This document shows positions 33,089 through 34,093 of a stretch of DNA of 64,000 nt, in pieces. The DNA comes from Stappia sp. WLB 29 (GTDB taxonomy: Bacteria; Pseudomonadota; Alphaproteobacteria; Rhizobiales; Stappiaceae). The stretch lies in NCBI RefSeq assembly GCF_023507705.1, contig NZ_JALBGD010000001.1, positions 558,001 to 622,000 of the forward strand, in the 5' to 3' direction. Below the pieces are notes generated by a model that was not told the DNA's origin, searched no databases, and saw nothing but the letters and a program-made list of their open reading frames with translations. The stretch's first letter is position 1, and every line of letters starts with the position of its first letter. A program made the position numbers and the translations under genes.

Positions 33089-33466
33089 TCAGCCCTGCGC
33101 CCCGAACGCCTCCGCGTCCGCTTGCTTCAGCGAGACGGACTCGCCGCAGCCGCAGGCCGAGACCTCGTTGGGATTGCGGAACACGAAGCCGGAGCGGAAC
33201 TTCGTCACCTCGTGATCCATCTCCGTGCCGAGCAGGAACAGCGCCGCCGAGGGCTCGATGAAGATCTTGACGCCCTTGTCGTCGATCACGTCATCACCCG
33301 GCTTCGCCTCCTCGACGAGGCTCATGTCGTATTCCATGCCGGCGCAGCCGCCCTTCTTGATCCCGACGCGCAGGCCGAGAACGGGCTTGGCCGAATTGCC
33401 GACGATCTCGCGCACGCGCTCGGCGGCGGCGTCCGTCAGCTTCAGGACCTGGAATCTGGAACCCAT
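33089..33466 (-). CDS. sufA: Iron-sulfur cluster assembly A-type carrier SufA
   Basis: 125-residue HesB/IscA-family carrier that receives Fe-S clusters from the SufBCD scaffold and passes them to apoproteins. The three ligand cysteines are visible: GGCAGMEY near residue 41 and CGCGES near residue 106. A GGGGA site precedes the ATG. It is the last gene of the suf operon, separated from sufT by 240 bases that hold two palindromic elements, and closed by a bidirectional terminator. Confidence 0.94.
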   Translation of the reverse strand: MGSRFQVLKLTDAAAERVREIVGNSAKPVLGLRVGIKKGGCAGMEYDMSLVEEAKPGDDVIDDKGVKIFIEPSAALFLLGTEMDHEVTKFRSGFVFRNPNEVSACGCGESVSLKQADAEAFGAQG

Positions 33467-33490
33467 ACTCGTTTCCCCGATTCTAGCGGT

Positions 33491-33564
33491 TAGTCACCCG
33501 AATCTGAAGTTCGTCACATTTGGCGGCGTGCTCTGAACGAACTTCAGATTTAAAAGGGTGACTA
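33491..33564 (+). repeat. Palindromic element, copy A
   Basis: Outer arms TAGTCACCC (33491-33499) and GGGTGACTA (33556-33564) pair perfectly. Inner arms AATCTGAAGTTCGT (33501-33514) and ACGAACTTCAGATT (33537-33550) also pair perfectly. The loop is 22 bases, and the right arm has an A-rich bulge (TAAAA). It lies inside the suf operon between sufT and sufA. Confidence 0.9.
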
Positions 33565-33578
33565 GCAAGTTTATGTTT

Positions 33579-33656
33579 CTAGTGTGGTTTTCGAATTTGA
33601 AATACGCTCTGACGGTCGCTGCCAAAACGAGGCGTATTTCAAATTCACCACACTAG
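33579..33656 (-). repeat. Palindromic element, copy B (inverted relative to A)
   Basis: Outer arms CTAGTGTGGT (33579-33588) and ACCACACTAG (33647-33656) pair perfectly. Inner arms GAATTTGAAATACGC (33593-33607) and GCGTATTTCAAATTC (33632-33646) also pair perfectly. The loop is 24 bases. Read on the minus strand it aligns with copy A along its whole length, including an A-rich bulge in the same arm and a TTTGGC-GCG core in the loop. Confidence 0.9.
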
Positions 33657-33706: not shown

Positions 33707-34093
33707 TCAATACCAGTTGAGCGCCACCTTGGCCTCTTCCGACATGCGGTCGGGCGTCCACGGCGGATCGAACACCATCTGCACGTTGACGTCGCCGACA
33801 CCCGGCACCGCCCCGACGGCGTTTTCCACCCAGCCCGGCATCTCGCCGGCGACCGGGCAGCCCGGCGCGGTCAGCGTCATGTCGATGGCGACCGAACGGT
33901 CGTCCTCGATATCGACCTTGTAGATCAGGCCCAGCTCATAGATATCGCAGGGAATTTCCGGATCGTAGACGGTCTTCAGCGCCCCGACGATGTCGTCGGT
34001 CAGGCGCTTCAGCTCGTCCTCGGAAAAGGCGGAGCCGGTGGCCGAAATCTCGGCCTGGGCGTCCTCGTCCTGCGTCAGTTGGTCTTCGCTCAT
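33707..34093 (-). CDS. sufT: SufT-like MIP18/DUF59 Fe-S assembly protein
   Basis: 128 residues with an acidic N-terminal extension and a MIP18 (DUF59) domain: DDIVGALKTVYDPEIPCDIYELG near residue 33, and the conserved Cys block LTAPGCPVAG. Proteins of this family assist late steps of Fe-S protein maturation; it is the SufX/SufT member of the alphaproteobacterial suf operon. Its ATG, with a GAGGG site, lies 7 bases after the sufS stop. Confidence 0.92.
   Translation of the reverse strand: MSEDQLTQDEDAQAEISATGSAFSEDELKRLTDDIVGALKTVYDPEIPCDIYELGLIYKVDIEDDRSVAIDMTLTAPGCPVAGEMPGWVENAVGAVPGVGDVNVQMVFDPPWTPDRMSEEAKVALNWY

Follow-up and report, generated by a model that had tools for sequence, protein, structure and literature searches.

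The palindromes that lie between two suf genes of the window (the whole 64,000-base stretch of DNA that was analysed) are the two halves of one dispersed element, probably a MITE (a non-autonomous mobile element) such as IS630/Tc1-mariner-type transposases move. In the proposed mechanism, the outer ends (about 24 bases, CTAGT-N5-GAATYTGAARTWCG) would act as terminal inverted repeats, and a CTAG (or TTAG) sequence would receive the 161-base element at its TA through a transposase provided in trans. This TA would be duplicated on insertion, giving CTAG at each end. Pairing of each end with an inner complementary copy, interrupted by a 4-base bulge, would generate the two hairpins. The copy in the window would have landed between suf genes of the same strand, 24 bases before sufA, and the mRNA would be predicted to carry it as two strong hairpins. 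The mover would be an IS630-type enzyme, probably since lost or only passing through.

The palindrome pair and its host locus

The features of the window are the following, with the strand in brackets where one applies.

33089..33466 (-): sufA, the next gene downstream (NCBIfam SufA, 136.7 bits, just over the cut-off of 136.2)
33490..33656: whole insertion including target bases, T-TA / element / TA-G; the full-length dispersed unit, in a gap without it in 12 of 14 congeneric genomes
33490..33513 (+): P1 outer end, 24 bases resembling an IS870-like IS630 element at its 3' end (end comparison)
33491..33492: TA, putative target dinucleotide, copy 1 (from one-ended odd outer bases and element-free sites)
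33491..33564: hairpin P1, with an A-rich bulge in the inner-side arm (arm search, folds, covariation in alignment A2)
33493..33653: putative element proper, 161 bases, if TA is the duplicated target (from one-ended odd outer bases and element-free sites)
33500..33504: GANTC (GAATC) in the P1 stem, a CcrM-type methylation motif (motif scan)
33566..33578: 13-base spacer CAAGTTTATGTTT with CTAG on either side; a similar spacer occurs in twins from other genera
33579..33656: hairpin P2, with a 4-base bulge in the inner-side arm (arm search, folds, covariation in alignment A2)
33633..33656 (-): P2 outer end, with the same terminal pattern as P1, CTAGT-N5-GAATTTGAAATACG (end comparison)
33654..33655: TA, putative target dinucleotide, copy 2 (same grounds as copy 1)
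33707..34093 (-): SUF-associated FeS assembly gene (FeS_assembly_P), upstream (TIGR02945, 157 bits)

A search for arm pairs recovered four of them at 33491-33656, every one 100% complementary and all placed where a preliminary description of this DNA, made from the sequence, had put its two perfect two-step palindromes 14 bases apart. The outer arms of P1 (33491-33499/33556-33564, 9 bp) and of P2 (33579-33588/33647-33656, 10 bp) are followed inwards by arms of 14 bp in P1 (33501-33514/33537-33550, enclosing 22 bases) and 15 bp in P2 (33593-33607/33632-33646, enclosing 24 bases), and the distance between the palindromes is 14 bases. The fold reaches -46.2 kcal/mol as DNA (z -8.9) and -74.6 as RNA of the transcribed strand (z -10.9), and a chance origin of the palindromes is excluded because none of 200 shuffles was equally good for either. 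CTAG appears 14 times in the window, compared with about 197 expected by base composition; three of these sites (33562, 33579 and 33653) are inside the element and another, at 33483, is 7 bases ahead of it.

The sufA start codon is about 24 bases from the element, and the assignment of this gene in the preliminary description is upheld by a score just over the cut-off. The upstream gene, which had been called sufT, scores under the cut-off of the NCBIfam 'SufT' model and matches TIGR02945 (product of 33707-34093). The genes further upstream appear from their translations to be sufS, sufD, sufC and sufB, and the suf genes around the element probably form one operon or transcript. No terminator-like site was found within the element by a scan. 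A weak promoter-like match pointing toward sufA (33480-33508, minus strand, TTCAGA-17-TAGAAT, 9/12) straddles the element edge, with the first hexamer inside the element and the second in the host flank; 0.3 matches of that score are expected from shuffles of the region.

A dispersed unit and its insertion sites

The own genome was searched with each half of the pair, and at ten sites both halves were found adjoining in the same arrangement; therefore, the dispersed unit is the pair (33490-33656) and not the single palindrome, and what had been described as two copies of one element is one composite element. The full copies of this genome measure 163-167 bases and share the layout CTAG-P1-CTAG, 13-base spacer, CTAG-P2-CTAG, with P2 inverted and the CTAGs decayed in some copies; the remaining sites are truncated (L012, L013/L035, L038 and L040). 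Alignment A1, which comprises the 10 full copies and leaves out the truncated L012, L013, L038 and L040, has a mean column identity of 90%, and its changes concentrate in the loops and spacer (105 in about 690 cells, versus 47 base changes in 980 arm cells). Among its 37 changed pairs (four gapped pairs set aside), 27 changed on one side, nine on both sides and still pair, and one on both sides and is unpaired.

The gene upstream of the suf gap is present in all 14 genomes of the genus, and the gap contains the element in two of them (the own genome, G000, and G008, whose copies are identical across 167 bases) and lacks it in the other 12, seven of which gave no blastn match to the element anywhere. 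Clean element-free gaps with the same flanks are seen in G002 and G012, and the site, read on the transcribed strand, is CTG-CCAA-CCGC when empty and CTG-CTA[...]TAA-CCGC when filled. Insertions of this type can make close relatives differ in a gap within a core operon, as seen here for suf. For eight of the 10 own copies (L001, the copy of the suf gap, L003-L008 and L010), a congener has an element-free alignment spanning the site; outside these eight are L002, with a candidate spanning match in G012, and L009. The preliminary description had preferred a spreading repeat family to chance, against which it had set the possibility that no other copies existed and that homologous gaps aligned as ordinary sequence; further copies are present in the genome and in its relatives, and the homologous gaps of congeners are free of the element.

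The target is of the CTAG type. The element-free site is CTAG, in at least one genome each, at L004, L005, L008 and L010, contains TA at L006 and L007, reads TTGG at L001 and has neither CTAG nor TA at L003; the sites agree with the TA-duplicating insertion of an IS630-type MITE, two of the eight being without TA today. Five sites have an odd outer base next to an intact TA: TTAG/CTAG at L001 and L340, CTAG/CTAA at L117, and CTAG/CTAC at L132 and L342 (the second copy of L341, with a left flank equal to that of L340, was excluded from this count). Because the odd base stands at one end only, the outer bases would fit a duplication of TA at CTAG or TTAG and not a duplication of CTAG, although later mutation could also give such one-ended odd bases. 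Several old copies (L005, L006 and L007) have decayed ends.

Distribution in relatives and in other Alphaproteobacteria

The element was detected by blastn in 18 of 101 genomes (own included) and 3 of 47 genera, with copy numbers per genome that are lower bounds, the best eight candidates having been scored in each. The end pattern, allowing one mismatch at most, has matches in 28 of 87 family genomes (reversed-pattern control, 0), and a scan of contigs with it gave at least 112 stretches. Among the matches listed, 58 were classed as twins, 20 as IS870-like elements, 19 as hairpin only, 14 as end only and one as cut, by a script with thresholds of our own setting. The five listed stretches named outside Alphaproteobacteria (L119, L127, L142, L161 and L192) are all end only. 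The twin-hairpin architecture occurs in other Alphaproteobacteria, and the 37 twins that were measured are 164-169 bases long. Fourteen plasmid records match the element, nine of them with at least 80% of it covered and none of them from Sinorhizobium, and the phage records searched gave no match.

The genome of Roseibium sediminicola (G108) contains 24 copies, five of them equal to the consensus, and the 16 copies fetched are nearly identical (mean pairwise identity 0.968, range 0.842-1.000), so its movement there is recent. All 19 compared copies of G108 and G125 sit in CTAG, the sequence with which the selecting pattern itself begins. At L318, two twins are in direct tandem with one CTAG in common, as if one had been inserted into the end of another, and the twins L340 and L341 share the same left flank over 40 bases and have different right flanks, a T of the flank being matched by an A in the P1 inner arm. 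CTAG is also the site of a second, small repeat (L349, about 2539-2803; L343, about 2206-2466), which measures about 260 bases and has GGGTC(C/T)GGACC-like ends; in one twin it separates P1 from P2, and several G108 twins directly adjoin one of its ends (flanks of L318, L327 and L332).

Short forms of about 72 bases (L085, L087, L088 and L352), in which P1 is reduced to its left half and P2 to its right outer end, exist in the Roseibium-type genomes G060 (Roseibium sp. MMSF_3412) and G125. They were rejected as proof that the outer ends suffice for movement, since the two right arms share a direct repeat in which the junction falls, and recurrent deletion explains them equally. According to rough ORF calls, two of 59 copies (some being one site in two genomes) are covered by an ORF (L066 and L063), several others overlap an ORF at the edge, and in 15 the neighbouring ORF ends inside the CTAG; such a gene end is confirmed by an annotated record, where an SDR gene extends 4 bases into the element.

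Ends shared with IS870-like insertion sequences

The end pattern also detects an insertion sequence (IS) about 1170 bases long in Rhizobium, Agrobacterium and Aquibium, and its matches in Acetobacteraceae are shorter. The 365-aa product of the complete IS is an IS630 transposase (NCBIfam IS630, 284 bits, cut-off 100; PF13358, 71.6 bits), and we take the name IS870, together with its trait of a stop codon made from CTAG, to apply to these insertion sequences. Their far end starts with CTAGT in four of the five elements printed (L131, L170, L148 and L169, not L166). In the L131 gene, the TAG of CTAG serves as the stop codon; the P1 end, read outward, gives by eye T-S-D-S-G-D-stop, and its S-D-S-G-D-stop equals the last residues of that gene. 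End consensuses were derived from six IS 3' ends, three IS 5' ends and 33 twins. P1 equals the IS 3' end in 22 of 24 bases, a figure biased because the pattern selected this end, and the unselected IS 5' end in 16 of 24; P2 equals the IS 5' end in 13 of 24 bases and then in eight of the next 10. Past base 24, the comparison of P1 with the IS 3' end falls to chance level (7/22, no better than shuffles), and N5 is not the same at the two outer ends of an element.

The element thus resembles a MITE in being short and dispersed and in having no transposase gene (163-167 bp, 10 full own copies), and it shares terminal repeats over 24 bases with an IS630 element, mainly in other genera. A cognate transposase in the host, usual for a MITE and not strictly required, was not found: the own genome has no DDE_3 domain, and none of the seven repeat-rich relatives, G108 included, has an IS630 transposase above the cut-off (four of them have weak, mostly partial matches), which discards a resident IS630 partner over the cut-off in these genomes. 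IS870-like matches at E 1e-10 are present in five of 87 family genomes (one near full length, with 85% identity), and two such loci of Stappiaceae, L264 and L266, do show element-like ends. Of 16 carriers elsewhere, 12 have some IS630 match and five have one above the cut-off; the IS630 genes at the loci fetched from these carriers have no such ends, save faint ones at L299 and L307 (4 mismatches). No autonomous copy was found in 20 stretches around apparently single ends, which hold twins and short forms, copies that are truncated or decayed, and an unrelated second repeat located in CTAG. Draft assemblies may lose transposases; G002 and G125, however, are single contigs. Single palindromes that are perfect, lack a bulge and have CTAGTGTCC ends were seen in Limobrevibacterium and Acidisphaera (L104, L173 and L110; 57-58 bases); their genomes have IS630 transposases above the cut-off, and the ones fetched are without these ends.

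The absence of an IS630 transposase over the cut-off from the repeat-rich genomes could also mean that the mover is a different enzyme acting on a folded single strand, as Y1/HUH enzymes do on REPINs, the hairpins and bulges being its signal and IS630 elements sharing these ends or having borrowed them. The bulged, inverted twin hairpins do recall REPINs, and pairing is preserved across lineages. We consider this explanation improbable, since the ends of the element match IS630 ends at the exact terminus and, to our knowledge, Y1 enzymes do not insert by TA duplication at CTAG. In addition, no Y1 (RAYT) transposase (PF01797) was found in the own genome, the one searched for this domain, with positive controls matched (5/14). 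The check for RAYT-type transposases proposed in the preliminary description was therefore negative for this genome, and a RAYT/REPIN reading was dropped.

Matched changes in the arms

The arms change together across genera. Alignment A2 contains 33 twins from many genera (the 37 measured, minus six near-duplicates, plus the window copy and L152, whose range was set by hand and is shifted one base). In it, 97.0% of the cells pair, and two-sided changes are found in 25 of 49 pairs (130 cells), compared with 23-41% of cells and 5-10 two-sided pairs for slid structures. Shuffles fall short of the observed values for every measure but pair types (2/500), and these shuffle figures are not probabilities, because the window copy supplied the structure and the rows are related.

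The covariation noticed in the preliminary description is thus confirmed and extended; the structural selection that it had offered is not needed as its cause, as indicated by the recent copies of G108. The consensus P1 stem of this genome has a single T-G pair (positions 21 and 52), which has been mended both ways, by G to A in L331, L319 and the older type L340, and by T to C in L339. In L319, moreover, the P2 loop is inverted (of its 54 bases, 53 agree with the reverse complement and 40 with the forward reading) and the bulge is lost, as it is in L329. Loop inversion and matched stem changes are described as footprints of template switching in the parts consulted of a 2022 study (PMC8794818). 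Since the wobble pair was mended from either side and a loop was turned round, we infer that template switching between the arms is one cause of the covariation, explaining part of it. Other changes in the same G108 copies break pairs (e.g., L318, L323, L328 and L338), so this correction of the arms is only partial, and the bulge is retained across genera, which speaks for some action of selection as well. The many near-identical, recent copies in one genome constitute a natural data set in which template switching can be weighed against selection.

Selection could also have kept the hairpins as an RNA device between operon genes, such as an insulator, an mRNA stabiliser or a processing site. 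The very stable fold of the transcribed strand, the two-sided changes in 25 of 49 pairs and the many copies adjoining gene ends are in line with such a role, which is nevertheless very improbable: the element is patchy (absent at the suf site in 12 of 14 congeners), truncated copies exist, and the one-sided changes of the own copies do not favour G-U (10, versus 17 mismatches). A known RNA family is ruled out by an Rfam scan at gathering thresholds, which returned only tRNAs, and no match to the element, in the window and in seven loci.

Comparison with known repeats

No description of the element was found in the literature covered, the CC-licensed papers of PMC. Like REP/REPIN sequences with RAYT, it has two inverted palindromes with a short spacer in between; unlike them, its palindromes measure 74-78 bases, its insertion is of the TA type and its own genome has no Y1 transposase. 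RIMEs (Rhizobium-specific intergenic mosaic elements) are palindromic intergenic repeats of rhizobia, and the element, judged by the description of them known to us, is likewise palindromic and intergenic. IS870-like IS630 elements share with it 22 of 24 terminal bases of the P1 consensus, the CTAG target and the stop codon made from CTAG; they differ in their length of about 1170 bp, in carrying a transposase and in the absence of twin hairpins.

The RUP element of Streptococcus pneumoniae (linked to IS630-Spn1), as presented in the portions consulted of a 2007 review (PMC2229807), is also short, intergenic and without a transposase gene, with IS630-like ends and a TA target. Our element departs from RUP in its size of about 166 bp, in its two separate self-paired ends with a spacer, and in that seven repeat-rich relatives have no IS630 transposase over the cut-off.

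The same portions of that review describe the CIRs (Caulobacter CcrM-associated intergenic repeats) as intergenic repeats of Alphaproteobacteria (Caulobacter/Brucella) with two long inverted repeats and a linker, TA at the termini, a conserved GANTC at the terminal loop and a length of about 110 bp, and state that more information is needed on their mobility (Delihas 2007, PMC2229807). That the element belongs to the CIRs, or is a longer version of them, with a functional GANTC, is a plausible reading, to which we give somewhat less than even credence, and it is compatible with the MITE mechanism. Two hairpins (inverted repeats) with a linker, TA ends, GANTC and an intergenic position are common to both, as judged from descriptions of CIRs in the parts of reviews consulted and not from the sequences of CIR1-CIR4. 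GAATC is present in P1 of all 33 aligned twins and of nine of the 10 own copies, although the pattern used to collect twins favoured it. The element is, however, 163-169 bp long, not about 110 bp, and its GANTC is at position 11 of the P1 stem, with another GANTC in the partner arm of most copies, instead of at or in a terminal loop. CIR-like repeats were sought in 572,500 bases of one Asticcacaulis contig, where no dispersed family was seen.

A wider reading, speculative and rather unlikely in our view, would unite these features in a class-wide family of alphaproteobacterial twin-hairpin transposable elements, each terminal repeat being permanently paired with its own inner copy. A candidate enzyme would read the IS630-like end together with the bulged hairpin, movement could be coupled to replication by a methylatable GANTC in the P1 stem, and template switching would keep the arms matched during their drift between lineages. 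The IS630-type MITE that we prefer provides two-hairpin repeats of Alphaproteobacteria with a testable mode of movement, namely TA insertion at CTAG with IS630-like ends, and its nearest described relatives in kind are CIR repeats and, among IS630 MITEs, elements such as RUP.
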